This document shows, in pieces, positions 1,507-52,340 of a DNA stretch of 64,000 nt. The stretch's first letter is position 1, and every line of letters begins with the position of its first letter. The stretch comes from Mactra quadrangularis (taxonomy: Eukaryota > Mollusca > Bivalvia > Venerida > Mactridae): NCBI GenBank assembly GCA_025267735.1, contig CM046294.1:37045222-37109221 (forward strand), in the 5' to 3' direction. The notes under the pieces are model-generated. The model saw nothing but the letters and a program-made list of their open reading frames with translations. It was not told the origin of the DNA and did not search any database. A program made the position numbers and the translations under genes.

Positions 1507-1871
1507 TTTTGATCAAATATGTCGTGAGGTCTTGACTTCTTGACACTTGAACGTCTAGGTTTAGAATGAACTCTTTTCTTTGGGTGTGTGGGTTTTGTAC
1601 GTTTGGCAGGAACAACAGCTTTGAGTAATTGTTCACCCATGTTTTTAAGCATGTTAGCCCCACGTTTTCTCGCCACTTCTTTAGGTTTGGAGCCTGTCAT
1701 TAAATCTTGCACAGCCCCTTTTCCTTGACGAACTGCTTCATGTTTTAACGTTTTCATTCCAGTTTTGAACAAGGGTTGTAGTAGAGGCATGACATTTTTC
1801 ATAGCTTTTTTAAACACGGATCCTAAACCATGTCCATATTGACGAGCTTGACCTTTGTAAATGGGTATCAT
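1503..1871 (-). CDS. Small basic core protein, adenovirus pX/Polinton PX-like
   Basis: A 122-residue, strongly basic protein. The N-terminus MIPIYKGQARQYGHGLGSVF, followed by a helical KKAMKNVMPLLQPLFKTG segment, is the usual layout of the small Polinton protein compared with the adenovirus X core protein. The C-terminal third is Lys/Arg/Pro-rich (PAKRTKPTHPKKRVHSKPRR), as expected for a DNA-condensing virion protein or a nuclear localisation signal. It sits between capsid and penton genes, with 4-nt ATGA overlaps at both its start and its stop. The DNA-packaging role is inferred from composition and position. The family assignment rests on pattern recognition alone. Confidence 0.75.
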   Translation of the reverse strand: MIPIYKGQARQYGHGLGSVFKKAMKNVMPLLQPLFKTGMKTLKHEAVRQGKGAVQDLMTGSKPKEVARKRGANMLKNMGEQLLKAVVPAKRTKPTHPKKRVHSKPRRSSVKKSRPHDIFDQK

Positions 1872-2692
1872 TGTTTCTGTCGAATATGAACTTTTACCAT
1901 CGACTTCCCGTGCACAAAATGAATGTGTTTGCCTGTGTCTCCCCTTATATTTATATGAATAGTGTCAAAATCGGCTTTGGCAAGAGGAACATAGTGTAAA
2001 TTCAAAAATTCGAAATGAATGTGGGGATTACTCCCTGCTTTAGTCACCGATTCAAATGGAACCACGCGTAGAATGGGGGCTTCTATATTTCCTAACAAAG
2101 TGTAAGAGGCAAGATCAGAATACACAAATAAATGATTATGTCCCATATGCACATCTACACCATAAGGAAATGGATTTTTATTGTCTTTAAAATACACAGT
2201 AGTAGACTCATTTGGATCTCCCCCTAGTTTTATGAACAGATCAGGATGAAATTGAATACCCAATTCATCCGAACTGGCCATTTTCACTGTTTTACTAATA
2301 TTGGAAAAACTCATCACCAATGTAAGATTGTGTTTTTTTAAAATACCTCCAATATAATTTTTAATCGTTTCATCAATCGTTTGAATGAGATGTTGTGGTG
2401 TTACATAAGTTGCAGGCGGAATAGATAAACATAAACCTTGAGCACAATGTTCAGGAAGTTCACTCAATGCTCTGCGAACATTTTCATCTTGACTGACAAT
2501 GTAAAATGTTCCTTCCTCTTGTGTAATATTTATGACTTGACTTGGTACAATTAATTCGACTAGAGCAATTTCCCAATCTTGTTTATTTAAATGTACAGGT
2601 TTGATCAATTTTGTACGAAAACAACATTGTTTATTATCAGGAAACAAATCTGTAGAACTATCACTCATTAATGTAATGTAAAAAGAACTCAT
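1868..2692 (-). CDS. Penton (minor capsid) protein, single jelly roll
   Basis: A 274-residue protein that opens with SFYITLMSDSSTDLFPDNKQ and continues with LNKQDWEIALVELIVPSQ. This N-terminal signature (short strand, aspartate/serine loop, FPDN, then WEVAL-type strand) is typical of the Polinton penton protein. The rest is beta-rich with no transmembrane segment. Pentons occupy the fivefold vertices of the capsid and interact with the MCP encoded two genes downstream. The start codon overlaps the stop of the membrane-protein gene by 4 nt. The length is usual for the family and the frame is intact. Confidence 0.85.
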   Translation of the reverse strand: MSSFYITLMSDSSTDLFPDNKQCCFRTKLIKPVHLNKQDWEIALVELIVPSQVINITQEEGTFYIVSQDENVRRALSELPEHCAQGLCLSIPPATYVTPQHLIQTIDETIKNYIGGILKKHNLTLVMSFSNISKTVKMASSDELGIQFHPDLFIKLGGDPNESTTVYFKDNKNPFPYGVDVHMGHNHLFVYSDLASYTLLGNIEAPILRVVPFESVTKAGSNPHIHFEFLNLHYVPLAKADFDTIHINIRGDTGKHIHFVHGKSMVKVHIRQKQ

Positions 2693-2938: not shown

Positions 2939-4012
2939 TTATACAAGATAAGATTCTGGTATCCAACTATCAAATTTAGAAGGATAGCCTTTCCAATGTA
3001 CTTTTATTTCCCGTATCTTTTTTCCACCTACACTCCTCTGACGCCGATCAAGAACTGATTCAATTTCGTAAATGTCACTATCAAATATAGGTTGAATTTC
3101 CGAAACATAAAAAGAGCCTAATATTTTCTCACCTTCTAAATCTTCTAATTTAAAAGTGGGAGGTTGGGTTTTGGACACACGTACTACTTTAAATATTTCA
3201 GTGGTCCAATTGGGTAAATAACCTTTGTCAAATGTACGTTTTGTTTTATTCAAACGTACTCGATCTCCCACCTGAATGGTGTGGGATGAACTTTGTTTTT
3301 TCTTACCGTACAAGGCATTAGAGACTTGGGCTTCATTTTGTGCATTGACAGAAGCTGGTGTTCTTTGAATGCTACGATGAAACCGATGATTATAACTATG
3401 AACCAGTTTAGGCAATATGTCTACATAGCGCCGTGTATTTTCATGAGTGAAATATTTCCACATACGTGTTTTCAATGTACGTTGAAACCGTTCAACAACA
3501 CTTGCTTTGGTTTCTGGATTTTCAGTGGTGAAAAAATGAATACCCGATTTTTTAAGAAACTGTTGAAATGCATGATTTTTAAATTCAGTTCCTTTATCGG
3601 TTTGCAGAGCTTTAGGTTTTCTTGGAATAGAACTAAATGCTTGAATAAGTGTATTGCCTGTTTTATTTTCAATAGGAATGACCCAAGCATATTTTGAAAA
3701 AACATCAATAACACAAAGTAAATAACGATAAGGTTTATTAAATTGTGCCAATGATTGCATATCAGCTAAATCAGCTTGCCATTGATGATCAATCCCTGCT
3801 ACTACGGTTGCTCTTCTGGAAAATTTACGCCGTATAGGTTTATGCAGAGTGTAGGTGTTCTCTCCTTTTAACCAGGATTTCACTTGATTCAAAGTGATAG
3901 ATTTTAATTGGCGTCTTGCAGCTTTGTACAGAGCTTGTATTCCACCAAATGCTGCTGGATTTGCAGGATTGTAATAGATGGAACGTAACACTTTCTTTAA
4001 TAAGGATCCCAT
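2939..4012 (-). CDS. Polinton integrase, retroviral-type DDE with C-terminal chromodomain
   Basis: This 357-residue rve-family integrase inserts element DNA into the host chromosome in the nucleus. The N-terminus NPANPAAFGGIQALYKAARR is characteristic of the F54H12.3-like family. The catalytic triad is D81 (in WQADLADM), D139 (in LQTDKGTEF) and E174 (in KASVVERFQRTLK). The segment YNHRFHRSIQRTPASV follows, then an SH3-like region around 246-300 (VGDRVRLNKTKRTFDKGY). A chromodomain occupies about 314-357 (YEIESVLDRR, then IKVHWKGYPSKFDSWIPE). The chromodomain probably directs integration to modified chromatin. All catalytic residues are present, so the enzyme looks functional. Its start lies inside the last codons of the preceding gene (16-nt overlap). 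Confidence 0.95.
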   Translation of the reverse strand: MGSLLKKVLRSIYYNPANPAAFGGIQALYKAARRQLKSITLNQVKSWLKGENTYTLHKPIRRKFSRRATVVAGIDHQWQADLADMQSLAQFNKPYRYLLCVIDVFSKYAWVIPIENKTGNTLIQAFSSIPRKPKALQTDKGTEFKNHAFQQFLKKSGIHFFTTENPETKASVVERFQRTLKTRMWKYFTHENTRRYVDILPKLVHSYNHRFHRSIQRTPASVNAQNEAQVSNALYGKKKQSSSHTIQVGDRVRLNKTKRTFDKGYLPNWTTEIFKVVRVSKTQPPTFKLEDLEGEKILGSFYVSEIQPIFDSDIYEIESVLDRRQRSVGGKKIREIKVHWKGYPSKFDSWIPESYLV

Positions 4013-4674
4013 TTTTCAGTCTTGAGATCTGTAGGACTGGAAAAACTTTCATAAAATTGATCTTCTTCGTCCTCGTCTTCCACGTTGTCATCTAACTGTT
4101 GAATCCAATTCCAACGTCTTTTATTTCCTACCACTTCTTGAGGCACGTTCACTTCTCTTAATCCACGTGAAAACTGTTCCCAACCACGAGGGTTGGAGCT
4201 TTTTCTTTGACGTAATACATCATTGACTAAATCAATAATATTGGATCCTGCTACAGGTTTTCCATCATATTCTAAAACACCTTGTTCATTCCATGACATA
4301 TGAGGATGTTGTTTTAACATGTTGATTAAAAGTTCAGCTTTACGCCGCATAGTGCGTGGTACACTTTCTACAATTTGATCTTTCAATGTCGTTGTTGTTG
4401 GTGGCGGTGGTGTTGGTGCTGCTGAAGGCATTACCGTTGCTTTTGGTGTACGAGCTCTTTCATGCGATTGTTGAAATTTATGTAACACTTCACCATATTG
4501 TCTAGCTTTTTCTGAGGGTGATAAAGTATCTTCATTTAACACATGATTCATTTCATTTTCTAATTGAGCTGTTTGGGTGACTTGAGGAGAAGGTGGTAAA
4601 CGAGGTCGTTGTTGTGTTTTCCATCGTTGCATCTCTTCCAACACTTTGAAAGGAACAATAGCCATTTTCTTCAT
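3997..4674 (-). CDS. Conserved Polinton protein of unknown function (PY-type)
   Basis: A 225-residue protein that begins MKKMAIVPFKVLEEMQRW. A Pro/Thr-rich linker (PTPPPPTTTT) lies near residues 88-97. A conserved C-terminal block around 105-185 contains KAELLINMLKQHPHMSWNEQ, GKPVAGSNIIDLVNDVLRQR and NPRGWEQFSRGLREVNVP, which I recognise as a recurrent module of animal Polintons without assigned biochemistry. The tail is very acidic (DDNVEDEDEEDQ). The acidic tail beside several basic proteins suggests a chaperone or assembly role, but that is speculation. It starts with a 4-nt overlap with the upstream gene and its stop lies 16 nt inside the integrase gene. Confidence 0.7.
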   Translation of the reverse strand: MKKMAIVPFKVLEEMQRWKTQQRPRLPPSPQVTQTAQLENEMNHVLNEDTLSPSEKARQYGEVLHKFQQSHERARTPKATVMPSAAPTPPPPTTTTLKDQIVESVPRTMRRKAELLINMLKQHPHMSWNEQGVLEYDGKPVAGSNIIDLVNDVLRQRKSSNPRGWEQFSRGLREVNVPQEVVGNKRRWNWIQQLDDNVEDEDEEDQFYESFSSPTDLKTEKWDPY

Positions 4675-5075
4675 AATTTCTTGACTAATTGAGCAACTCC
4701 ACCACTTAATGCACCGGCAGCAACTGCTTTTGCAATGACAGGAGCTAATGCTAACAAGGGTAATATACCTCCCTTTTGATTCAGTACACGTTTCTTCTTT
4801 TGAATAGATGTTTTCTTATCAGCTAATAATCGGAGGTGTTGACACTTTGGCCTCAACTTGCGCTTTTGAGCTGGAGTCAATGTCACATTCCCTTTTAAAA
4901 TGTTACTACAACATTCTGAGATACAATTGATCAGTTCTGAAGGTGCATGATGAATCATCTGTTTTCGATAGGCTTCTGGGGCTTGAGCTAAACCAAGCAT
5001 CACATGCCCATACTTTTTCACAAGTGGTTGCTTTCGTGTCATGATGATAACTAAATCAAGTGTTGTACTGCTCAT
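4671..5075 (-). CDS. Conserved Polinton protein with amphipathic/hydrophobic C-terminus
   Basis: This 134-residue basic protein has a helical region at 47-100 (ELINCISECCSNILKGNVTL, then TPAQKRKLRPKC and KKTSIQKKKRVLNQKGG) followed by a hydrophobic Gly/Ala-rich tail (ILPLLALAPVIAKAVAAGAL). The layout LILA.. - NVLKGNVPLT - K..L - GG-hydrophobic is a recurring Polinton protein. The hydrophobic tail could be membrane-active in the manner of adenovirus protein VI, but no direct similarity is claimed. The N-terminal half of the next gene upstream (5072-6112) has the same layout, so the two may be duplicates. Both ends are ATGA overlaps. Confidence 0.65.
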   Translation of the reverse strand: MSSTTLDLVIIMTRKQPLVKKYGHVMLGLAQAPEAYRKQMIHHAPSELINCISECCSNILKGNVTLTPAQKRKLRPKCQHLRLLADKKTSIQKKKRVLNQKGGILPLLALAPVIAKAVAAGALSGGVAQLVKKL

Positions 5076-6112
5076 GACTTATATAACATTTCTAAAGCTT
5101 TTAAAGCCTCTGCTGTGGATGGATCTTTGGGAGGAGACTGAGATAGTAAACGTTGTATTCCTCTTCGCATTAAATCTTGCATGCCATCTACAGGTGTAGC
5201 AGATGTTGGCATCATTCTTCTTAATCCTTGTCTCATTAATTCTTGTTTCACCATATCTGCATCAATGGTTTGGGTTAAAGGTGAAAATCGAGCTATCAAA
5301 GTAGAGGGTTCACTTCTTGAACTATTTCTCGAACTGTTTCTTGAACTATTTCTTGAACTCAAACTACGACTTGGTGTAGAATTAAAACTTCTTGTTGGCG
5401 TATGACTTGCTGAATTTCTTGGTGAATTAAAACTTCTTGATGGTGTAGAATTAAAACTTCTTGCTGGCGTATGACTGTTTCTTGATGGAGTAGAATTGAA
5501 ACTTCCAATTGGCGTATGTCTTACTGAACTTCTTGTTGAACTGAAACTTCTTGTTGGCGTATGTCTTGATGAACTTCTGGTTGAACTGAAACTTCTTGTT
5601 GGCGTATGTCTTGATGAACTACTGGTTGAGGGTGGTGTTTTATGAGCAATATACCCCGTTGTTTTCTGTGCCATTTTCTTTTTCACAGGTTTCTTTTTAG
5701 TTGTTTTCTTAGTGGACTTTTTAGCAGTTTTCTTAGCAGTGGTCTTTTTCGCAGAGGTCTTTTTAGCTGTTTTCTTAGGACCAAATTTGCGTATTGTCTT
5801 TTGACCATTCCATCGTAATAAACTGCGTATCATCACTCCACCCAGAAATCCACTCCCGCCTGGTTTTAAAATCAATTGACGTTTTGTGTCTAAATCAATG
5901 GTGTCATCTTGTAACTGCTCTAATTCATGGCGATGTTTTTCCATGAAATTAAGAGTTTGTTTAGGAAGTTTTACTTTCTTTTGTAAAATAATTTGTGCAG
6001 CAAGTGTAAACCATTTCACCATTTCCTTTAATCCCGAGCGTAATAATTGTTCACGGGTGTCAGGATTCTTTTCCCGACTCAAATGAACAAGAGACTGAGC
6101 TATAGCTTCCAT
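5072..6112 (-). CDS. Histone H1-like Lys-rich and Ser/Arg-repeat Polinton protein
   Basis: A 346-residue protein. I start it at ATG 6112 because the open frame upstream to 6139 begins with TTG, and ATG 6112 has a strong context (A at -3, G at +4). Residues 25-100 form a helical block ending in KRQLILKPGGSGFLGGVM that resembles the 134-residue neighbour. Residues 113-146 are a (K)KTAKK-type array like the tail of histone H1. Residues about 162-275 are repeats of the kind RHTPTRSFSSTRSS, then SRNSSRNSSR, an SR-type low-complexity segment that may be phosphorylated. The C-terminus is helical (ELMRQGLRRMMPTS, RRGIQRLLSQ). It probably binds DNA in the virion; this is inferred from composition. Confidence 0.7.
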   Translation of the reverse strand: MEAIAQSLVHLSREKNPDTREQLLRSGLKEMVKWFTLAAQIILQKKVKLPKQTLNFMEKHRHELEQLQDDTIDLDTKRQLILKPGGSGFLGGVMIRSLLRWNGQKTIRKFGPKKTAKKTSAKKTTAKKTAKKSTKKTTKKKPVKKKMAQKTTGYIAHKTPPSTSSSSRHTPTRSFSSTRSSSRHTPTRSFSSTRSSVRHTPIGSFNSTPSRNSHTPARSFNSTPSRSFNSPRNSASHTPTRSFNSTPSRSLSSRNSSRNSSRNSSRSEPSTLIARFSPLTQTIDADMVKQELMRQGLRRMMPTSATPVDGMQDLMRRGIQRLLSQSPPKDPSTAEALKALEMLYKS

Positions 6113-6145
6113 GATGGATAATGAACCAATGATCCTCAAGTGAGC

Positions 6146-6793
6146 CTATATATACACAACTGAAGCCCGATCTTCTCCTGTTAACCAATGATGAAATATA
6201 TCAGTTCTTAACCGATACGTGTCTGGGGTATGAGGATGAAAATCAATCAGTAAATACCCATGAGGTGTTGATACAGCATCTTGATAAGCTGCTATCAGAT
6301 GAGGAAGTTGAATCTGGTTGGCTAACACTTTAATTTGACCTTTATCTCTCGTGTTTTGAAACAAGATCATGTAATGTGCATTTAAACTCAAAGTGCGACT
6401 TGCTTTGGATGATTGAAATAAATTTTGTGTAATATAAATAACACTTGCATTGCGATGATGACCTTTACGTGTAAACCATAATTTGATTTTTTCTTCATCC
6501 TTTTCTCCCAACATGTCATCAAACACAATCAAATGAGGGATGGTTATATCATCCACAATGTCTTCATCATTCTCAGGAATACCCTGAATAAATTGAATCT
6601 GGGTTTCTTGCTCTTTTAACTGCGCATAAGCTGACTGCCATTCTTTGTAGCACCAAACAATACGTTCAGGTACTATATGAAATAAATCCGTTTTGTATTC
6701 CAACAGCTTTTTTACAAACTGTGTTTTTCCTGAGCCACTAGGACCCGAAATAAAAATATTGCATGGATGCTTAAAAAGTAAACTCTCTTCCAT
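6146..6793 (-). CDS. Genome-packaging ATPase (FtsK/HerA, A32-like)
   Basis: This 215-residue P-loop ATPase is expected to drive DNA into the capsid. The Walker A motif GPSGSGKT is at 17-24 directly after a short strand (CNIFISG). Walker B is LIVFDDM at 88-94. The sensor-type motif VIYITQNLF lies at about 118-126. The order and spacing match the Polinton/A32-like packaging ATPases. The RKGHHRN segment before the sensor may hold the arginine finger; this is inference. The size is normal for the family. Downstream is the Lys-rich protein gene after a 33-nt gap. Upstream is a 184-bp non-coding stretch. Confidence 0.9.
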   Translation of the reverse strand: MEESLLFKHPCNIFISGPSGSGKTQFVKKLLEYKTDLFHIVPERIVWCYKEWQSAYAQLKEQETQIQFIQGIPENDEDIVDDITIPHLIVFDDMLGEKDEEKIKLWFTRKGHHRNASVIYITQNLFQSSKASRTLSLNAHYMILFQNTRDKGQIKVLANQIQLPHLIAAYQDAVSTPHGYLLIDFHPHTPDTYRLRTDIFHHWLTGEDRASVVYI

Positions 6794-7708: not shown

Positions 7709-8303
7709 TTTCCCACAAAGTGAAATTCCCTGCGGCAAAAGAATTGACTCTCGCTAAACCAGTGTATTCTATTTCAGAAGTGTCCAACTCGACATTTTCT
7801 CTGAACTGTCTCAAATCAGAAGAATCCTGTTTATATATGTGAGCTCGATCTCCAAGGATAAGAAATACGTGTTCAAACGTAACGTCGTATGGAAATAGCA
7901 TGAAACCATGTATACGCACCCCATACATTGTGTTCACATAGTAATACCAAACAAAAACACAACTTTGATGAAACCGTTGGGCTAAAAGTTCAGTTTCTTT
8001 CATTTCTGCATCCGTGAAACTAAAACCCCAAATACGTGATACCATATGATACACTTTTTGCTGCACCATGTTAAATTTTCTTAACACGGGTTGTCTTTGA
8101 TGAATCGTCAAATCGTCTCTTCCCAAAACATCCAACACCATAGATTCTAATCGAAAGTCCTTCTTTTGTAAACTATGCAAAGCATTGTGACTTGCCCAGG
8201 CTATCACCAATTCCGTTTTCCAGCGTTTTGCATTGGCCCATACCACATAACGATAAATTTTCTCTCTCAATTCAATCGGTAAGTATGGTATCAAGTCCAT
8301 CAT
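7698..8303 (-). CDS. Hypothetical 201-aa protein with F-box-like N-terminus
   Basis: The N-terminus MDLIPYLPIELREKIYRYVV (after an extra Met) fits the F-box pattern LP-x-EL-x3-I-x2-Y(L/V), with helix-forming WANAKRWKTELVIAW after it. The middle and C-terminal parts (for example FVWYYYVNTMYGVRIHGF) are not recognised. If the F-box is real, the protein could recruit SKP1-cullin ubiquitin ligase to a host or viral target; that is inference from a short motif. The start overlaps the polymerase stop by 4 nt (ATGA). The alternative is an unrelated Polinton-specific protein. Confidence 0.55.
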   Translation of the reverse strand: MMDLIPYLPIELREKIYRYVVWANAKRWKTELVIAWASHNALHSLQKKDFRLESMVLDVLGRDDLTIHQRQPVLRKFNMVQQKVYHMVSRIWGFSFTDAEMKETELLAQRFHQSCVFVWYYYVNTMYGVRIHGFMLFPYDVTFEHVFLILGDRAHIYKQDSSDLRQFRENVELDTSEIEYTGLARVNSFAAGNFTLWENAQ

Positions 8304-11300
8304 GTCAATGAAGTGTAACCAAAGGGTACCGTCATATAATTGTCAATGATGATACGTTTTGTATATACCGAACGAAATGTCTTGGTTTGTTTCTCACTGG
8401 TGACTTTACGATCCCGATGTCGTTTTATTCTAGATTCATACTCTACGACTGTAGAATACTGATCACGATTTTTTACACATTCTACCATGGAATTAAAATT
8501 GACTTTTTGTGAAGCATTGAAATCTAAAGTAATGCCTTTGACTTTGCAAGTCTGATGCACTTCTCCGTTTTCTATGTATTCATAACCATAATTCTTTGGA
8601 CCTAAAGCTACATATTTTACAATACGACCCTGAGGCACTTCATCGGTCCACATTCCTAAACGACTGGAGTGGATAGGAACATTGTACCCGTTGGGATCAT
8701 AAATAAACATGCAAGAGTCCGTGTCAAAATAAAGGACTCTTTTTCCTAAAGGTTCAAGCACTTTGTAAAGTTCTAATCTTGCATAGGCAGTAACATACGA
8801 GGCCACTACAGGATTGGATGAAGAGTGGGGTTCTACTTTATCGTTTTCATCTGTATAATTCACTAACATGAATTCATCATGATCAAAGGTTTCTGTATAT
8901 TTAACAGACTTTCTAGGATCAGACAAAATCTCATATAAACGATCTAATTTATGCACATACTCTGTTTTAGGTAGAATATTATTCTGGGCATTTTTACCCC
9001 ATAAACAATTGAGCATAGTTTTAGCAAATGCTCTTTTTCCAGGGTTTTTCTCTACATGCTCTAACACAATGCCTTCTGCTTTATAGTAGTCTTCTTTAAA
9101 CTGGTTTTGTTCTGCTTCTGTAGTCACACCACTTGGATAACCACTAGCTTCTTGTTTTATTTTCAAGTATTTGTCTATGTATCGACGGTACACATCTGAA
9201 CTCCACTCCTCCCAATGCCATACATGATACACATTCAATACACGATAACCCAACTCTATAGCTTTAGCCAGTTCAACATGAGTCCATGTGCCAAACAAAC
9301 TACGTTCCCTTATCGTATGAGTGCATGGCTTTCCCATTTGTACCTCTTCAGCACATGTGCGACATAATGTAAACACCATCTTTTTATTACAATGCATGGG
9401 AAGTACTGGCATCCATAAATCTTGAGGGGGTAAAACACAACATTTAATCAGTCCTTTGTAGAGATCTAGTTGAGTGAGATCAATCTGTTCTTGACTTAAT
9501 ATTGTAGGATGACCAATAGGGTAAGCTCTATACTTGTTCACAAAGGGATACAAGGAGCAAATGTCTACATATTTTATTTCTTGACCTTCTTCACATTCAT
9601 GAAACAATTTGACAGCATTGGTGCGACCTCCAAATAAAGCTTCACGAGGGATGATAGGATCTTGACCAAAATAAAATCGTTCTACTCTGGTTTTATAGAC
9701 CTTGTCTGCTTTACATTTTTTCTCAAATTCACATTCCCACATGACCACTAATGTGTAGCCTTGATCTTTCAATTCTTCGAGGCGACATTTTGTGTGGGCA
9801 TACAACAAACCCATGGTTTTCAAGGAATACGGATGGATCAGATCTCTATTGGGAAAACACTCGGGGCATCCATGATACCAACATCCCATAAATTCATACA
9901 CGGTATTCGTATCTTTACAAAATCCATCTACATAATATGGTCCAATCTTGACTTCACCATGATGGTTCAAGGCATGTTGAATATGAATACCTTCTGTCAA
10001 AGCCATCATTTGTAGCCAGCGCACGCCTTTCATAGAATATTTCGTTTTGTTGGGATATCCAGCATCAGAAATAACACCTAAACTCAGTTCTGGCATCGAG
10101 TTTTTTCTCCATGCTTTATTACAAACTTGTGCTAATGTTGTCGCTTCCAAGAATGGATCTATTTGATCACTCTCTAATAACTGTTTACGAAATTCTCCAC
10201 ACCCTCGTCGTAAAATGTCAACATCTGATCTACAATATTTCTCCATTTCCAATTGAAAGTCAAACACTTTGTCTTTTTGTTCATTGTACCAAGCCAGAAA
10301 TTGTTCACGTTGAGCTGGTTTCATACTATTAGGTCTGTAGTAATACAAAGATAAATAGGGTCCTACATAATCTTGAAACTCCAACTTGTTGGCATAGAAT
10401 GGAAACCATCCTTTAGCTAATTCATCCAATCCAAATGTTTTTGGAAATGCAGAGAGGGGCATGCTCAGAAAACTGAGAGAGTCAATCAAACGTACTCCAT
10501 GTATTTTCATCATAATAATTTTAGACCCATTCATGATTAACTCGGGTTTGGCACTTCCATGTGTAATAGCATGTCGTAGAATAAACTGTACATCATATCC
10601 ACCAGCATTATGAGCAATCACTGTTGATCCACGGTGGGTAGATTGAAATAGCCATGAAAAGAACTGTTTTAAAGTATCTTCTCCGCGAAACACCATTTCA
10701 CGAGGTCCTTCAACACCATCACATGTTGCGCAGGGTTCTTGAACAGACTGACACATACAATTCCCACACGCTCTTTGAGCTACACAGAAATTCGGGATAT
10801 GTTCACCCGAATCAAAGCGACATTCAAAATCAAAGAAGATAAAGGGTACTTTTGCTGGCTTCTTGTCTGGTGATTCATACGTAGGAATAAAGCACTCATG
10901 ATCTGGTCCAACGGTTGTTTTACAATAACGACACTTTTTCGTACCTGTACATTGATGATTGCGTTTCGTTTCAACAATAATCTGTCCACATGTTTTACAT
11001 TTACACACCGATTGACATATGGTCTTTTTTTGTTTTCCTTGAGTAGATTTATGCTTCTCATAACATTGTTCACTCTTGAACATTCGACGACACTCAAAAC
11101 AATAATGAGGTTTACCAAACTCACATGGGATGGGTGAATAACATACACAAATATGTATACATTTATGACCTTCACGATTACTATATCCTACATCACAATA
11201 TTCACAGAAATATTGTTTTGCTAGGAATCCCGTAATAGATACAATACAGTCATAATGATTATCATGATGATAAATGTGTATCACTCGACTCTTTTTAGTC

Positions 11301-12088
11301 ACTTCTGGAGGGGTGAATAATAAATCTTTTCCATGTTGTGTACGTATTTTAATGACATACTCTGGATACAAATGATCTTGTAGTTTCTTGTATTCTTCTA
11401 TACCACACGGTTGATGCATTCCAATACCAACTTGATCTAATAACGCTTTTGCTTCTAATGTTTGTAGATTTTTCTTGGATTGGCGAATAAGATTCCATCG
11501 TTTTTTCCATTCAGGTGTTGAAGTCTGGTTCGCTTTACATCGACCGACCACAATAGATCTGGCCAAGCACATCGAATCTGAACTGTTGTCAATACGTACA
11601 ATACTTCGTTTGGTTTGAATAAGATGACTGACATCTACGGATTTAAATGGTAGAGGCTTCCCAGAGCCGTGCGGCATCTCAATATGCGTAATTTCTAGCT
11701 GGGTTTCTCCATCATGAATTCTAAAGGCTTGATTACTCTGTGCCACTTTCTCGATTTCTTCTAATAAGGATTCTCCCATGACGCTGGATGCTTGATTAAA
11801 AGGTATATGAATACCAAAATCTAGCTCTGGATGTTGAATGGAGAATCGAACTTGATCGGTTGATTTCACTTGACATGTATCGTAGAGTTGTTCAATCATA
11901 TCGTTGAATAATCGACTGGTAAATTCATACGATTGATCATACTGGTGTAGTGTGACATCGTAGACTTGAGCTTTAGTTCTAAACTTTCTTGATTTTCTTT
12001 CCGACCTCCGTTGTATATTATAGAACTGACGTACATTGTCTGTTTTTAATCTCTTGGTAGGAGGTGGTTGCTCGTCTTCGTGAGACAT
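8300..12088 (-). CDS. Protein-primed family B DNA polymerase (pPolB)
   Basis: This 1,262-residue replicative polymerase carries an intact 3'-5' exonuclease: Exo I FFDFE at 418-422, Exo II HNAGGYD at 493-499, and Exo III YCRSDVD at 618-624. Polymerase motifs are A YVDICSLYP (D842), B KTMLNCLWGK starting at K1023, C FDTDS (D1122, D1124) and CKVKG at 1181-1185. Residues 295-399 are rich in Cys/His pairs (CEYC, CVC, CFEC, CKCKTC, CRYC), probably several zinc sites. Residues about 718-790 (VDGFCKDTNTVYEFMGCWYH, then GYTLVVMWECEFE) look like the endonuclease-fold insert common in Polinton polymerases. The N-terminus holds a basic KKRLK-type stretch (PTKRLKTD) that could be a nuclear signal. It probably replicates linear DNA from a terminal protein. 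Confidence 0.95.
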   Translation of the reverse strand: MSHEDEQPPPTKRLKTDNVRQFYNIQRRSERKSRKFRTKAQVYDVTLHQYDQSYEFTSRLFNDMIEQLYDTCQVKSTDQVRFSIQHPELDFGIHIPFNQASSVMGESLLEEIEKVAQSNQAFRIHDGETQLEITHIEMPHGSGKPLPFKSVDVSHLIQTKRSIVRIDNSSDSMCLARSIVVGRCKANQTSTPEWKKRWNLIRQSKKNLQTLEAKALLDQVGIGMHQPCGIEEYKKLQDHLYPEYVIKIRTQHGKDLLFTPPEVTKKSRVIHIYHHDNHYDCIVSITGFLAKQYFCEYCDVGYSNREGHKCIHICVCYSPIPCEFGKPHYCFECRRMFKSEQCYEKHKSTQGKQKKTICQSVCKCKTCGQIIVETKRNHQCTGTKKCRYCKTTVGPDHECFIPTYESPDKKPAKVPFIFFDFECRFDSGEHIPNFCVAQRACGNCMCQSVQEPCATCDGVEGPREMVFRGEDTLKQFFSWLFQSTHRGSTVIAHNAGGYDVQFILRHAITHGSAKPELIMNGSKIIMMKIHGVRLIDSLSFLSMPLSAFPKTFGLDELAKGWFPFYANKLEFQDYVGPYLSLYYYRPNSMKPAQREQFLAWYNEQKDKVFDFQLEMEKYCRSDVDILRRGCGEFRKQLLESDQIDPFLEATTLAQVCNKAWRKNSMPELSLGVISDAGYPNKTKYSMKGVRWLQMMALTEGIHIQHALNHHGEVKIGPYYVDGFCKDTNTVYEFMGCWYHGCPECFPNRDLIHPYSLKTMGLLYAHTKCRLEELKDQGYTLVVMWECEFEKKCKADKVYKTRVERFYFGQDPIIPREALFGGRTNAVKLFHECEEGQEIKYVDICSLYPFVNKYRAYPIGHPTILSQEQIDLTQLDLYKGLIKCCVLPPQDLWMPVLPMHCNKKMVFTLCRTCAEEVQMGKPCTHTIRERSLFGTWTHVELAKAIELGYRVLNVYHVWHWEEWSSDVYRRYIDKYLKIKQEASGYPSGVTTEAEQNQFKEDYYKAEGIVLEHVEKNPGKRAFAKTMLNCLWGKNAQNNILPKTEYVHKLDRLYEILSDPRKSVKYTETFDHDEFMLVNYTDENDKVEPHSSSNPVVASYVTAYARLELYKVLEPLGKRVLYFDTDSCMFIYDPNGYNVPIHSSRLGMWTDEVPQGRIVKYVALGPKNYGYEYIENGEVHQTCKVKGITLDFNASQKVNFNSMVECVKNRDQYSTVVEYESRIKRHRDRKVTSEKQTKTFRSVYTKRIIIDNYMTVPFGYTSLT

Positions 12089-12214: not shown

Positions 12215-12580
12215 ATGGCTCAGAGTACATTGATCTACGAGTTAAAGAAAAAACTTGCTGAAGTACATGCCATTGTTGTTAAGTTGGATACTGAGGATTT
12301 AAGTCATATTGAATGTTATCGTTGTCATGAAAAAGGACATTATGCGAATAGTTGTTTGAATCAACCAAGGTACACAGAGGGATGTTATTACTGTCATGAC
12401 AAAACACATTATATAAACAAATGTCCATTGAAAACAAAAGAAGAAGATGTGAATGAGAATAAGTTGGTGATCGACATGCCGGAGGTAAACAAGATAGACA
12501 TGCCGGTGGAAAACAACACTGAAATACCGGAGGAAAAAAAGAAAGAAAAGAAACGTAAACGGGCAAAGAACATGGACTAA
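12215..12580 (+). CDS. Two-zinc-knuckle (CCHC) protein
   Basis: This 121-residue protein has two perfect CX2CX4HX4C knuckles: C34-C37-H42-C47 (CYRCHEKGHYANSC) and C57-C60-H65-C70 (CYYCHDKTHYINKC). The N-terminus is a short helix (YELKKKLAEVHAIVVKL). The C-terminus has two near-repeats around IDMPEV/IDMPVE and ends in a Lys/Arg block (KKKEKKRKRAKN), likely a nuclear signal. CCHC knuckles bind single-stranded RNA or DNA, as in retroviral nucleocapsids and CNBP. A role as single-strand binding protein for the adjacent polymerase, or in RNA handling, is inference. It is expressed from the divergent promoter and ends at an AATAAA signal rather than a histone-type hairpin. Confidence 0.85.
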   Translation: MAQSTLIYELKKKLAEVHAIVVKLDTEDLSHIECYRCHEKGHYANSCLNQPRYTEGCYYCHDKTHYINKCPLKTKEEDVNENKLVIDMPEVNKIDMPVENNTEIPEEKKKEKKRKRAKNMD

Positions 12581-12693: not shown

Positions 12694-12737
12694 TTTGTTA
12701 TTCTTCGTAAGTAAATGGTGTGGTCCTGAAAAGGACC
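12694..12737 (-). terminator. Histone-type 3' stem-loop plus HDE-like element
   Basis: On the minus strand, GGTCCT-TTTC-AGGACC (12737-12722) is a 6-bp stem with a UUUC tetraloop, flanked 5' by CCAAC and 3' by ACAC. Fifteen nt further is the purine-rich CGAAGAATAACAAA (12707-12694). This is the layout of replication-dependent histone mRNA ends, which are recognised by SLBP and U7 snRNP. The stem begins 14 nt after the stop of the LYPDL gene. Confidence 0.85.
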
Positions 12738-12751
12738 GTTGGTTTTAGTTA

Positions 12752-13063
12752 TTAAATCTTAGCGGCAGTAATGAAGGCCTTCCATCTTAGGACAGGGTCC
12801 TTCGACTGACATTCTGCTAAGTAGATGTAGTACCAGTAGTTTTTGTACAGCTCATCATCATAATACTCTGACAAATCAGGGTACAAATTACCCATTTTGA
12901 TGTTGGTTGAATCATCATAATACTCTGACAAATCTGGATACAAATTACCCATCTTGATGTTGGATTTATCAGACTGAAACTCTGACAAATCTGGGTACAA
13001 ATTACCCATTTTGATGTAAGAGGGTGTATCATCACACAGAGAAGGTTTTAAGCAGTTGCCCAT
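12752..13063 (-). CDS. Myristoylation-signal protein with three LYPDL repeats
   Basis: A 103-residue protein. MGNCLKPSLC at the N-terminus is a good N-myristoylation signal (Gly2) with nearby Cys4 and Cys10 as possible palmitoylation sites, so it is predicted to sit on the inner face of membranes. Three 19-residue repeats follow, each IKMGNLYPDLSE plus a polar/acidic tail; LYPDL is at 22-26, 41-45 and 60-64. LYPxL is the ALIX V-domain-binding late-domain motif of retroviral Gag proteins, including EIAV p9. The C-terminus is aromatic (YKNYWYYIYL) then amphipathic. The protein probably recruits ALIX/ESCRT to membranes for egress or trafficking; this is inference from motifs. It ends in a histone-type hairpin. 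Confidence 0.85.
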   Translation of the reverse strand: MGNCLKPSLCDDTPSYIKMGNLYPDLSEFQSDKSNIKMGNLYPDLSEYYDDSTNIKMGNLYPDLSEYYDDELYKNYWYYIYLAECQSKDPVLRWKAFITAAKI

Positions 13064-13274
13064 CTTGAATGCTCAAGCACAAATGAACTGGGACACCACA
13101 CAATACAAGAGAAAAAAAACTAAGAACCAATCAAAACACACATATGAAGAACCAATCAAAACTCGTACTTTAAGAACCAATCACAGACTTTCAGGATGTA
13201 GGTCAATCCTATTCCTGTAGGTCAATCCACAGTATATAAGTCGTTGGAATCGCTGCACACATTCATATCTCAAC
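13064..13274. promoter_or_regulatory. Shared divergent promoter with three phased CCAAT boxes
   Basis: CCAAT occurs at 13127-13131, 13152-13156 and 13177-13181, each inside AAGAACCAATC and exactly 25 bp apart. Two copies of TGTAGGTCAATCC follow at 13197-13209 and 13216-13228. For the rightward gene, TATATAAG begins at 13233 and the initiator TCATATC has its A at 13265, 32 bp on. For the leftward gene a TCATTT initiator-like site is at 13086-13081, but no good TATA box is seen. CCAAT boxes in this number suggest NF-Y binding. Confidence 0.75.
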
Positions 13275-13550
13275 ATGTCTCAGAAAATTACTTTCGCCGA
13301 GATTAGGAAAAGATTGCCACCTCCAGAAGTGGAAGACTGGGGTGATAATGTGAAATTACCACCTCCGCCTCCAGAGGACTGGGATAAGGAGTTAATAGAT
13401 CTGCCACCTCCTCATGTTAAGTCCACTGAAAATTGGGATGAGGAGCTTATCAAATATAAGGCTCCAACATTCTCCCTGACAACAGGGGTATGTAAGCCTA
13501 AGTGGCGTAAATGGTGCGTGGTGTGTATGGGGAAGTGCGGTTGTCGCTGA
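13275..13550 (+). CDS. PPP/W-repeat protein with Cys-rich basic tail
   Basis: A 91-residue protein. Three imperfect repeats combine a proline run and an acidic Trp motif: LPPP at 14-17 with EDWG, LPPPPP at 28-33 with EDWDKEL, and LPPP at 43-46 with ENWDEEL. LPPPP is close to ligands of EVH1, SH3 or WW domains. The C-terminus has Lys/Trp and five Cys (CKPKWRKW, then CVVCMGKCGC), which may bind zinc or be palmitoylated. No catalytic domain is seen; the protein looks like a multivalent linear-motif adaptor. It diverges from the LYPDL gene and carries the same type of histone-like 3' end, which suggests coordinated expression. Confidence 0.75.
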   Translation: MSQKITFAEIRKRLPPPEVEDWGDNVKLPPPPPEDWDKELIDLPPPHVKSTENWDEELIKYKAPTFSLTTGVCKPKWRKWCVVCMGKCGCR

Positions 13551-13568
13551 ATGCAACCGAAAAACAAC

Positions 13569-13608
13569 GGCCCTTCTCAGGGCCAACCATTTCATTTCGA
13601 AAGAATCT
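13569..13608 (+). terminator. Histone-type 3' stem-loop plus HDE-like element
   Basis: GGCCCT-TCTC-AGGGCC (13569-13584) lies 18 nt after the stop codon, flanked by CAAC and AACCA. The purine-rich element GAAAGAATCT is at 13599-13608. The second loop base is C instead of the usual U; otherwise it fits the histone stem-loop consensus. Confidence 0.8.
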
Positions 13609-14040
13609 ATTTTCAACATGTCACAATTGATCACTCAGTACATTTTCGACTTAATCCGTGTTTTAGATCTAACCCCTATTTTGTTAAAAAAAAATCTAGT
13701 ATGATATATGTATAACAATTATTTTAATTTGTAGGCATCTATGACGTTATTATTATTATTTATGCACGTATTCCTGCCTATATTATAATCAATAAATGCG
13801 TTTTTAATTGAAGTATGGAAAGAAACACAGGTTGAAAATCGCCTAAAATCGTTCATTGAATAAAATATAAAAATAATACCGCTCCGAAACTAATATGCTA
13901 TTAATCTATGTTACTGATAGAATAAGGATCAATCATTCAAAAAAGTCTCACTTAAACCGTTTTAAAATAACAGCCATTTTAAATTATAAAAGAAACACAA
14001 CTGAGCGTAAATTCATAAATATTAAACATGCCATATGCAT
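13609..14040. other. AT-rich stretch without genes
   Basis: No credible ORF in either strand. The first part (to about 13,700) resembles the sequence after the third hairpin: both have a CAAYATGTCA segment soon after the HDE-like element and then an AAAATCTAGT segment. This suggests duplication of a 3' end module. Confidence 0.5.
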
Positions 14041-14131
14041 GACGTGACGTCATCAGACTTAAAATTCTTGGAAGTGCGCTATTTATAGCACCGCGCTTCG
14101 AGAACGTTCATTTCTTGTCTAACCAGCGACG
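14041..14131 (+). promoter_or_regulatory. Promoter of Gln-rich gene: CRE, TATA, initiator
   Basis: A palindromic TGACGTCA (CRE/ATF-type) is at 14045-14052. TATTTATA begins at 14080, and a TCATTTC initiator has its A at 14110, 30 bp downstream. The ATG follows at 14132. Confidence 0.7.
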
Positions 14132-14593
14132 ATGTCGGATCAAGATTTATTAAGAGAAGTTATGCAGACTGCAGAGTTGATGGAATATTCTACCATGTAC
14201 CAGCCTGTCTATCAACAACCTCAACAACAAATGATGCAACCACAATCAACTCAACAACAAATAATTCAACCAACTCAACAAACAATGATTCAACCAACAA
14301 CTCAACAACAATCAGGTGGGTGCAGTTTAAGTCAAGATCGTCAAATTTCGCTTGCCATTTTGAAAGAACTGAGAGAAATTAAAACGCTGCTGTACCCGCT
14401 GAAAGATGTACGTGAAATGATCGAAAAGAGACAAAGCTGCGCTGTACAATTCATACCTCAAGAATTGAAAATACCTGTACGCTTTTCAACGGAGAGCCGT
14501 CATGAACAACATGGACAAGGCAAGCACAGTAAGAAAATGCCTGAGGAACCTGCGCTGAAGAAAAAGAAAGATGATGCGAAACGAAAACATTAA
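14132..14593 (+). CDS. Gln-rich protein with basic C-terminal tail
   Basis: A 153-residue protein. After an acidic start (MSDQDLLREVMQTAELMEY), residues about 24-61 are Gln-rich with repeated QQ-x-IQPT units. Residues 70-100 form a predicted coiled-coil-like helix (ISLAILKELREIKTLLYPLK then VREMIEKRQ). The C-terminus ends in lysine clusters (ALKKKKDDAKRKH), a likely nuclear signal. Gln-rich plus helix plus nuclear signal is compatible with a transcription or DNA-associated factor; no family is recognised. It has its own CRE/TATA promoter and a histone-type 3' end. Confidence 0.75.
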   Translation: MSDQDLLREVMQTAELMEYSTMYQPVYQQPQQQMMQPQSTQQQIIQPTQQTMIQPTTQQQSGGCSLSQDRQISLAILKELREIKTLLYPLKDVREMIEKRQSCAVQFIPQELKIPVRFSTESRHEQHGQGKHSKKMPEEPALKKKKDDAKRKH

Positions 14594-14617
14594 AGCAGAC
14601 GGATTTATACAACCAAC

Positions 14618-14656
14618 GGCCCTTTTCAGGGCCACCCATCTATGCCGGAAGAATGA
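14618..14656 (+). terminator. Histone-type 3' stem-loop plus HDE-like element
   Basis: GGCCCT-TTTC-AGGGCC (14618-14633), preceded by ACCAAC and followed by ACCCA, fits the animal histone mRNA stem-loop consensus in stem, loop and both flanks. The element CGGAAGAATGA at 14646-14656 is 14 nt after the stem. The stem begins 25 nt after the stop codon. Confidence 0.9.
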
Positions 14657-14688
14657 ATTCTCAATATGTCAAAATAAAATCTAGTCTT

Positions 14689-14720: not shown

Positions 14721-14723
<3 letters not shown>

Positions 14724-14926
14724 GTGGTACAAAAAAGTTTTACTTTTTGCGTGGTACCTCTTCTCTCCCCCAAATTTTGATCGTTTTCTCTCCCAAAATT
14801 CGTTTTTTCGTTTTGGTACTATAAAGGTTTTTTTCTAAAATTTGCGGTACCATAACGGTTTTATTTTTAAAATCGCGGTACCATAACGGTTTTTTTTCTA
14901 AAAAATTGGTACCACGCTAGCACCCT
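14721..14926. mobile_element. 206-bp MITE-like element
   Basis: It starts AGGGTGGTAC and ends GTACCACGCTAGCACCCT, so the ends are inverted repeats with an 8-bp insertion on one side. Three ~32-bp internal units around GGTACCATAACGGTTTT are arranged in tandem. Flanking ACAC on both sides could be a 4-bp TSD but lies in a microsatellite, so it is weak. Confidence 0.5.
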
Positions 14927-15253: not shown

Positions 15254-16291
15254 ATGGAGATGAATATTTTTAGAGGGTTATGCATATTAATTACACTTGT
15301 AGTTCTTTCGTATATCAGTTATAATTTGGCGGATGTATACAGCATCAAAACAGTGAATGAGATGGTAAATATACCGAGATTAACAAACATTGTCACAAAT
15401 AGAGAATGCTTAAGAAATGTCACGAGTTCTTATTCTAGTCGGAGATGTTATCATTTGAATTGGGTTCAGAGTGATATCACACCTGATGTGATCGTTAAAT
15501 GTGGATTCATCAAAATAGGTGAGGCAATTGGAAATTCAGGAAATCAAATGTTTCAAGTTGCTGCCCTTTTTGGCATCGCTCACTCGCTAGACTTGATTCC
15601 TATTATTGATAGCGATTTTAAGTTACTTCAGCATTACAAGCTACCTAACGTTATTAATATCAAATTAACAAATACCAAAAATTGTGAACCCGAGATTCAT
15701 CAATACTATGTGAAGTGTACCCGTCCACATTCAGATGTTGTTAACATGACCATTTACGGATATAGACAATCCTGGAAATACTTCAAACAAATTGAAGATG
15801 ATATTGCAAACATTTTCAGACATCAGTTCACGAGACCTTCAGAGATGAAGGCAAATAAATTCCTTTCAACTTTGCCAACGAATTCTACAAACATCGCGAT
15901 ACATATACGGAGGACGGACAGATTAAGGGATATGAAACTTAAAGGGTTTGCGGTTGGCGCAGAATTCTACAAAAAAGCCATGACATTTTTTCAATTTTTT
16001 TATAATAATATCAATTTTGTTGTTTTGAGCGATGACATGAAATGGGTAAAGAAAAATATTGTTGGAGATAATATATACTATAGTCCTTTTACAGACAAAA
16101 CTGATGATTTAGCGTTAATGTCAAAATGTGATCATGTGATATCAGCATATAGTTCATTTGGTTGGTGGGGTGCGTGGATGGCTAATGGAACAGCTGTACA
16201 TTATGCAGAAAGAATCAAGAATATAACACGGGTTTGTCAAATTGAAGAAATGGGTGACTATTATACTCCTGGAACGTGTTTAATTCCATGA
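15254..16291 (+). CDS. Alpha-1,2-fucosyltransferase-like protein, GT11 family
   Basis: A 345-residue type II Golgi membrane enzyme that would transfer fucose from GDP-fucose to a galactose of glycans. A short cytoplasmic tail precedes a membrane anchor at about 8-24. GT11 motifs are GNQMFQVAA at 96-104, the GDP-fucose-binding HIRRTDR at 217-223, VLSDD at 257-261 and SAYSSFGWWGAWM at 297-309. Sequons at N55, N164, N210, N311 and N323 fit a luminal domain. The frame is intact in one exon with no intron. Single-exon GT11 genes are common in large invertebrate families. It is a host gene or retrocopy and probably not part of the Polinton. Specificity cannot be told. Confidence 0.9.
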   Translation: MEMNIFRGLCILITLVVLSYISYNLADVYSIKTVNEMVNIPRLTNIVTNRECLRNVTSSYSSRRCYHLNWVQSDITPDVIVKCGFIKIGEAIGNSGNQMFQVAALFGIAHSLDLIPIIDSDFKLLQHYKLPNVINIKLTNTKNCEPEIHQYYVKCTRPHSDVVNMTIYGYRQSWKYFKQIEDDIANIFRHQFTRPSEMKANKFLSTLPTNSTNIAIHIRRTDRLRDMKLKGFAVGAEFYKKAMTFFQFFYNNINFVVLSDDMKWVKKNIVGDNIYYSPFTDKTDDLALMSKCDHVISAYSSFGWWGAWMANGTAVHYAERIKNITRVCQIEEMGDYYTPGTCLIP

Positions 16292-18296: not shown

Positions 18297-19309
18297 AATG
18301 ATCAATTTCAATTCTAACAAAGTTGATAACATGTTACATGCGTGGATTATTTTTATAAACTGTATGTGACGAATAACTTTATGATCGTCCCCTCTAGCAA
18401 CTCTGTAGAACTGCTGTATAGGAATATACTCTTATTAAGACTGATTTTTTTATTTCTACTTGCAAATTATTTTATAGATGATTTTATCATGTTTTAGTGG
18501 ATTTTTGACAATATTTACGCGATAAGCACCTGTGGCCTGAACTATTCCCTTCTTCATTAGGACATTTTTAAATAAATTCAAGAAAATCAATTACTTCACT
18601 TCATTTTATAACCAATCATAAGGCAAAGTAGCCCCAAGGAAAATATTTTTTATCAGGTAGTGTATAGCTGATTTTGAGTTGCCATACTTGCCCTATAATA
18701 ATAAACTGCTCGGATACATGTTACAATATCTACACGCTCTTGTAAAAATATCTATGACCAGATAGAGTGGTCGGACGTGTTTTTGTTTTCAACTTTGGAT
18801 CCAGAAGACACAGAAAAGAATCTATTTACCAAACGTAGTTTACAAAAGACACAAGTGGGTAAAGTAAAAATATCAATGCAAATATATTTAACTACAGATA
18901 CATCCTGAAGTAGATCATCTCATAATCCCTATTTCGATTCCACTTTCCTTTCGATCATATAAGCAGGAACGTATACATCCTGATATGAGGTTCTAAAAAA
19001 ACGGACTATTTCAGTACAGCAAATTTATGGCCCCAGATGGTCTTAATTAGATTGAAGACTTCAAGATCGGAAGTACGTTAAATAACCAGGTACCAAAGTG
19101 TACTATAGCACGACAAAAAAACCAATTTAGTGCGTCAGTTTATTTACCGCACGTGAACGTAAAAAACACTGAAAAGATACAAAATATAACGATTCCTTAA
19201 CAAATTGAATTTCTACATAATCGCGAAAACATGACATTTTATTTATAAAAATAATCCACGCATGTAACATGTTATCAACTTTGTTAGAATTGAAATTGAT
19301 CATTATTTT
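18297..19309. repeat. 63-bp near-perfect inverted repeat, about 0.9-kb loop
   Basis: Bases 18297-18359 (starting aatgatcaatttcaattcta) recur as the reverse complement at 19247-19309. The interior shows no coding capacity. It could be a non-autonomous DNA transposon whose outer ends have decayed, or a fold-back duplication. Confidence 0.7.
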
Positions 19310-21475: not shown

Positions 21476-21552
21476 GCGGCCGGAAAGCTCAGTCGGGAGA
21501 GCACTCGCCCTGTAAGCGAGGGATCCTGGGTTCGAGTCCCTGTCAGGCTGCA
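21476..21552 (+). other. tRNA-like sequence in 5' LTR
   Basis: A box AAGCTCAGTCGGGA, anticodon stem CTCGC/GCGAG with a 7-nt loop CCTGTAA (anticodon would be TGT, threonine), and B box GGTTCGAGTCC. Acceptor ends pair at six of seven positions. Base 33 is C rather than the invariant U, and the T stem has a mismatch, so this is not called a functional tRNA gene; a Pol III promoter role is plausible. Confidence 0.75.
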
Positions 21553-21742: not shown

Positions 21743-21819
21743 GCGGTCGGATAGCTCAGTCGGGAGAGCACTCACACTGTAAGCGAGAGGTCCTGGGTTC
21801 GAGTCCCTGTCAGGCTGCA
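21743..21819 (+). other. tRNA-like sequence in 3' LTR
   Basis: Same fold and boxes as the copy in the first LTR (A box TAGCTCAGTCGGGA, B box GGTTCGAGTCC). A mismatch in the anticodon stem (CTCAC/GCGAG) again argues against a decoding tRNA. Confidence 0.75.
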
Positions 21820-51889: not shown

Positions 51890-52340
51890 ACTGATTGTTG
51901 TTTTCGTAGGAAAAGTTGTTTTCGTAGGAAAAGTTGTTTTCGTAGGAAAAGCTGTTTTCCTACTAATATTTTCTATTAGATAGAATAGAAGTTGTTTTCA
52001 TGAGATTGACTGATTGTTGTTTTCGTATAAAAGTTGTTTTCGTATAAAAGTTGTTTTCGTATAAAAGTATTTTTCGTAGGAAAAGATGTTTCCGTATAAA
52101 AAGTTGTTTTCATGAGACTGACTGATTGTTGCTTTCGTTTAAAAGTTGTTTTCGTGAGATTGACTGATTGTTGTTTTCGTATAAAAGTTGTTTTCGTGAG
52201 ACGGACTGCTTGTTGCTTTCGTATAAAAGTTTTCGTAGAAATAGTTGTTTCCGTACGATTGACTGATTGTTGTTTTCGCATAAAAGTTGTTTCCATATAA
52301 AAAGTTGTTTTCGTGAGATTGATTGTTGTGTAAAAACAGT
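51890..52340. repeat. GTTGTTTTCGTATAAAA minisatellite
   Basis: About 20 units of 15-40 bp built on GTTGTTTTCGT followed by ATAAAA, AGGAAAA or GAGATTGACTGATT. Because units are often multiples of three they give false ORFs with NNF/TTF repeats on both strands. The same word recurs through 52,340-52,990 and 59,280-59,745. Confidence 0.9.

Follow-up and report, generated by a model that had tools for sequence, protein, structure and literature searches.

Three short genes beside the DNA polymerase gene of a Polinton-type element in the clam Mactra quadrangularis end in modules that are best read, from their sequence, as histone 3' end signals of the RF00032 type. We consider it quite probable that these modules function as 3' end signals of the replication-dependent histone type on bivalve Polinton accessory genes. 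Such 3' ends are generally regarded as nearly private to replication-dependent histone genes. A sequence-only reading of this DNA had proposed a histone-type signal for three Polinton accessory genes, and the proposal is supported by stem, loop, flanks and a downstream purine element at the ends of three genes that adjoin the Polinton core genes. The features are listed in Table 1 with positions in the window, that is, the whole stretch of 64,000 nucleotides (64 kb) that was analyzed.

Table 1. Features of the Polinton-type element and of the 3' end modules, in window coordinates
Feature	Position	Strand	Remarks
Capsid-like ORFs	208-1506, 1868-2692		Assigned by position only
Retroviral-type integrase with chromodomain	2939-4012	minus	PF00665 and Chromo PF00385
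A32-like packaging ATPase	6146-6793	minus	PF04665, E 2.7e-7
Polinton-type family B DNA polymerase (PolB)	8300-12088	minus	PF03175, E 1.1e-38
121-aa gene, same cluster as the hairpin genes	12215-12580	plus	CCHC-knuckle-like, under Pfam cut-off
Downstream purine element 1	12700-12706	minus	GAAGAAT, 15 nt past stem 1
Stem-loop 1	12722-12737	minus	GGTCCT-TTTC-AGGACC, 14 nt past stop of 103-aa gene
103-aa gene	12752-13063	minus	N-terminal MGNCLK, three MGNLYPDLSE repeats
Divergent promoter region of 103-aa and 91-aa genes	13064-13274		CCAAT at 13127, 13152 and 13177, TATATAA at 13233; motif matches only
91-aa gene	13275-13550	plus	EDW-rich, Cys-rich C-terminus; Mactra antiquata homologues
Stem-loop 2	13569-13584	plus	GGCCCT-TCTC-AGGGCC, 18 nt past stop of 91-aa gene
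Downstream purine element 2	13600-13606	plus	AAAGAAT, 15 nt past stem 2
153-aa gene	14132-14593	plus	Gln-rich, Lys-rich C-terminus; Mactra antiquata homologues
Stem-loop 3	14618-14633	plus	GGCCCT-TTTC-AGGGCC, 24 nt past stop of 153-aa gene
Downstream purine element 3	14648-14654	plus	GAAGAAT, 14 nt past stem 3
Candidate right end of element	14721-14925		Repeat-rich, 31-nt units, inverted GCGTGGTACC

The first 15 kb of the window hold part of a Polinton-type element, the core genes of which all lie on the minus strand. The element shares with Polintons, Mavericks and adintoviruses the combination of PolB, an rve integrase with chromodomain and an A32-like ATPase on one strand; it differs from them in having accessory genes that end in histone-type 3' signals. 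The two capsid-like ORFs gave no Pfam or PHROGs match, and a single-sequence structure model of the ORF at 208-1506 (mean pLDDT 38.7) was too poor for a capsid-fold reading. For an adenovirus-type protease, a Pfam search with 10 proteins (the ORFs at 3997-6139 were not in this set) detected no protease family. The first of four small genes to the right of PolB begins at a distance of 126 nt from the start of the polymerase gene. The left end of the element lies beyond the window, and the repeat-rich region that follows the last hairpin gene may be its right end, which is unproven. Three 31-nt tandem units with GGTAC at 14815-14914 are possibly subterminal repeats of this end.

A re-scan of the 64-kb window bore out the positions and strands that the sequence-only reading had given for the three hairpins. 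Each hairpin consists of a 6-bp stem and a 4-nt loop. The gap between stop codon and hairpin, put at 14-25 nt in that reading, was measured as 14, 18 and 24 nt, and the 5' flank CAAC that it had described was present before all three stems. In addition, stem-loop 3 is directly followed by ACCCA on its 3' side. A scripted scan of both strands of the window detected no further perfect GG....-4 nt-....CC 6-bp stem with a histone loop; the single other 6-bp stem of the same size, at 51945, is unrelated in sequence. If two or fewer mismatches to GGYYCTTYTCAGRRCC were allowed, three matches were obtained in the window, all of them the known hairpins. At the same tolerance, shuffled versions of the whole window (n = 100) contained a mean of 0.25 matches, and three were reached once. 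A first-order Markov model predicts 0.0002 exact matches for the window and 2.6e-6 once the flanks AAM..AM are included, as compared to three found in both cases.

The background of such patterns was visible in 257 Gb of prokaryote contigs, where the 21-nt flanked pattern common to all three hairpins matched 11 stretches. Six short histone peptides were sought at these loci and found at none of the 11, and we take the loci as background. One of them (L002) scored 34.9 bits, above the gathering score of Rfam family RF00032 (histone 3' stem-loop), so a lone hairpin match can be due to chance. Three hairpins inside 2 kb are not plausibly a product of chance. It is very improbable that the hairpins have a different role, either at the DNA level or as simple intergenic terminators. 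For two of the three, a terminator-like structure was called on the strand that does not carry the histone-type hairpin, but the loop, the flanks and the purine element fit the histone family, and in all three cases the histone-type hairpin reads in the same direction as the preceding gene.

All three hairpins were matched by RF00032, and one of them reached the gathering score of 34. Stem-loop 3 obtained 38.3 bits over 14613-14658 in a search of the 64 kb. In a 3-kb search, stem-loop 1 scored 33.9 bits (E 2.5e-7, over 12697-12742), which is 0.1 bits under the gathering score, and stem-loop 2 scored 32.7 bits (E 6.8e-7, over 13564-13610), 1.3 bits under it. The claim that RAAGAAT follows each stem after 14-15 nt agreed with measured distances of +15, +15 and +14 nt. 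The window holds 35 RAAGAAT sequences, and the spacing at the three stems has a p of ca. 3.5e-8 if the ends are independent, which they may not be, and with a 12-base range that was picked after the fact. Folding of the 3' regions, a check proposed together with the signal, placed each stem in its predicted fold. The folding energy was better than that of shuffled sequences for two 3' regions (z −2.70 and −2.18) and ordinary for the 3' end of the 153-aa gene (z −0.82).

When the three 3' ends were compared, the stem, its flanks and the purine element were more similar to one another than the intervening and surrounding bases. At one of the six stem pairs the copies have different bases in both positions and still pair; this is weak evidence because there are three sequences and 181 of 500 shuffles do as well. 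A further common block, ATGTCA, which the sequence-only reading had not mentioned, occurs at +32, +33 and +36 nt. As the longer block CAA..ATGTCA is common to all three downstream regions, a single cassette may have been copied to give the three ends. Copies of this kind would also be expected if the 3' UTR of a histone gene had been acquired by recombination, copied, and was no longer needed. We consider such a captured relic unlikely, since stem, flanks, purine element and CAA..ATGTCA block are alike and much of the rest differs, and since the trace in Mactra antiquata described below indicates that the signal was retained as protein identity fell to ca. 60%.

The modules have several properties in common with the 3' ends of replication-dependent histone mRNAs: a GG..CC 6-bp stem, a TTTC or TCTC loop, CAAC and AC-rich flanks, a short intronless ORF, a stop gap of 14-24 nt and a purine element 14-15 nt downstream. 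In contrast to replication-dependent histone genes, the genes found here sit in a mobile element and encode proteins that match no Pfam histone family. The purine core RAAGAAT differs from the AAAGAG of mouse H2a (PMC7026596). In Lucina, all histone mRNAs are reported to have stem-loops, and purine-rich elements lie near four of them (PMC6210712); among the literature matches listed, none supplied a usable sequence of a bivalve U7 snRNA or histone downstream element. The adomavirus 'Histoid' likewise links animal DNA viruses to histones; there it is the protein that is histone-like (PMC11071296), whereas here it is the mRNA 3' signal alone.

In animals, the stem-loop is bound by SLBP, the downstream element pairs with U7 snRNP, and cleavage by CPSF73 takes place between the two; in the mouse H2a substrate the cleavage site is preceded by ACCCA (PMC7026596). 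The mRNA is left without poly(A) after such processing (PMC5011920). Since the three Polinton genes carry the cis-acting parts that are visible in sequence, including ACCCA after stem 3, we take them to be substrates of the host pathway. Host SLBP would bind the stem-loop in the nascent RNA and host U7 snRNP would pair with the RAAGAAT purine element, upon which CPSF73 would cut a few nt past the stem, after ACCCA, AACCA or ACACCA. The products would be short, intronless mRNAs without poly(A), which would be made and translated mainly in cells that replicate their DNA. We infer SLBP binding, cleavage, absence of poly(A) and S-phase timing for the mRNAs of all three genes. On balance we lean towards the explanation that a clam Polinton lineage adopted host histone 3' processing as an expression class of its own, tied to host replication or to oocyte and embryo control. 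The accessory mRNAs would then be SLBP-dependent and without poly(A), and another gene of the cluster would keep polyadenylation signals.

The distribution of poly(A)-type signals bears on this explanation. Neither AATAAA nor ATTAAA was present within 200 nt for the 103-aa and 91-aa genes. One such poly(A)-type signal lies 79 nt past the stop of the 153-aa gene, so a polyadenylated form of its RNA is possible. The 121-aa CCHC-like gene is without a histone hairpin and shows signals of the poly(A) type at +88 and +170, which suggests that two classes of 3' end may coexist in the element.

The same signal could also serve another purpose, by providing mRNA that does not depend on poly(A) and is stably kept or stored in the germ cells and the early embryo, with no tie to somatic S phase. 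Histone mRNA is stored in germ cells and early embryos with oocyte SLBP, and Polintons must act in the germ line in order to be inherited, which we count in favor of this alternative. Furthermore, the RF00032 matches and RAAGAAT fit any use of SLBP, and the ordinary poly(A)-type signals of the CCHC-like neighbor, with the two 3'-end classes that they allow, agree with it as well. The present sequence data do not separate such storage from S-phase coupling, and an exclusive expression in S phase, reported for Hydractinia genes with such 3' ends (PMC5011920), argues against it. We regard another purpose of this kind, including a variant in which the mRNA escapes a shut-off of polyadenylated mRNA, as possible but rather doubtful; it overlaps with the best explanation, that of working histone-type 3' end signals.

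The three hairpin genes are short and intronless. Their proteins gave no match to a histone family in Pfam at E values up to 1. Pfam also gave weak matches for the accessory proteins, among them PadR and spectrin-like ones, all of which were under the cut-off and were rejected. A structure model of the 153-aa protein was of low confidence (pLDDT 55.4) and showed two helices, at 3-16 and 68-101. At its N-terminus the 103-aa protein carries a myristoylation-like MGNC, and it has three LYPDL motifs that resemble ALIX-binding late domains. Between the two divergent hairpin genes the CCAAT boxes occur three times at 25-nt spacing, and TGACGTCA is found at 14045, ahead of the third hairpin gene (153-aa). 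A histone-like promoter class for the hairpin genes was considered and dropped; TATA motifs also occur ahead of PolB and the CCHC-like gene.

Searching with the 103-aa protein yielded seven proteins at E values up to 1, all containing NLYPDL. Three of these (P0001-P0003) are convincing relatives (E 4.3e-18 to 1.8e-4) and the remaining four are weaker; NLYPDLSEF is kept at least once in each of the seven. The 153-aa and 91-aa proteins each gave four matches, all from Mactra antiquata (order Venerida), with identities of 57-60% and 63-67%, respectively; the protein clusters matched stand for 34 and 15 member sequences. Thus, M. antiquata has at least four distinct homologues of each protein, and for each protein the longest contigs of the homologues have four different sizes, ranging from 15.8 to 48.1 Mb. 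Two homologues, P0010 and P0013, have consecutive locus tags (ACF0H5_012107/012108) and contigs of equal size, from which it follows that a gene pair of the 153-aa and 91-aa types stands together there. A PPRY sequence, of the PPxY motif type, is missing from the window copy of the 91-aa protein and occurs in its relatives P0012-P0014; P0015 has APRY.

These homologues also bear on the question of whether the three genes belong to the element. The left end lies outside the window, the candidate right end is unproven and the linkage to PolB is known from this window alone, as would suit host genes that lie beside a Polinton by chance. We nevertheless find this improbable in view of the 126 nt that separate the first gene of the cluster from the PolB start. 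In addition, two of the genes have at least four M. antiquata homologues each on large contigs of different sizes, including the pair with neighboring tags, and such scattered homologues are as expected of a mobile element.

A trace of the signal itself was found in M. antiquata. The 91-aa relative P0014 diverges near its C-terminus and ends in the tail SNGPSQGQTISIHKN, and the hairpin region of the window reads NNGPSQGQ and TISFRKN in two reading frames. The tail was scored against DNA by taking the synonymous codon that fitted best and penalizing frame shifts; the likeness had been spotted before the test. Against the 3' end of the 91-aa gene it reached 37 out of 45, a score obtained by none of 5000 shuffled tails (mean 26.5, best 34). 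Among 3654 tiles of the window this 3' end was the best match (37) and that of the 103-aa gene the second (34); the 3' end of the 153-aa gene scored 30, which is not outstanding. The KN codons of the tail would span the core of the purine element (AARAAY). Since the tail fits hairpin-plus-element DNA, at least one M. antiquata copy seems to have, or to have had, the same stem and probably also the downstream element. The trace occurs in one of the eight homologues, through a tail in another frame that is known from the protein alone, and no hairpin-like tail was seen in the alignments of the other seven, proteins that are silent on the signal. The histone-type signal seems to be conserved in this other clam, which suggests that the element borrows host histone mRNA machinery.

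Relatives were also sought by DNA in the viral_contigs collection, which may omit records near the genome of the window. Three hairpin patterns, the flanked one among them, retrieved no hairpin-bearing relative from it, and a PolB pattern gave no match there. The capsid-like protein had 4 matches, the alignment of LYPDL proteins 37 and that of the 153-aa protein 600; tblastn confirmed none of them, and they were discarded. A degenerate NLYPDLSEF pattern led to a single contig (L001) without an Rfam match; its ORFs look phage-like, and we take it as chance and not as a relative.

Among the literature matches listed, from a collection with few subscription papers, none described histone-type 3' ends for Polintons or viruses, those on Polintons had nothing on 3' ends, and no paper of that collection joined 'Polinton' and 'histone stem-loop'. 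We know of no earlier use of this kind by a mobile or virus-like element. The signal itself is a known one of the RF00032 type; the kind of gene that appears to carry it is not known to us as described before. If the proposed adoption of host 3' processing is correct, cis signals alone could allow an integrated virus-like element to synchronize its expression with the replication of host DNA, and poly(A)-selected RNA-seq would be expected to miss such transcripts.

The sequence to the right of the element contains several other features. A glycosyl transferase family 11 gene is located at 15254-16291 on the plus strand, 0.3 kb past the possible right end. A perfect 63-nt inverted repeat at 18297-18359 and 19242-19304, with 882 nt in between, is arranged as in a small DNA transposon. 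Two tRNA genes detected with Rfam at 21478-21550 and 21745-21817 are near copies of each other, 267 nt apart.
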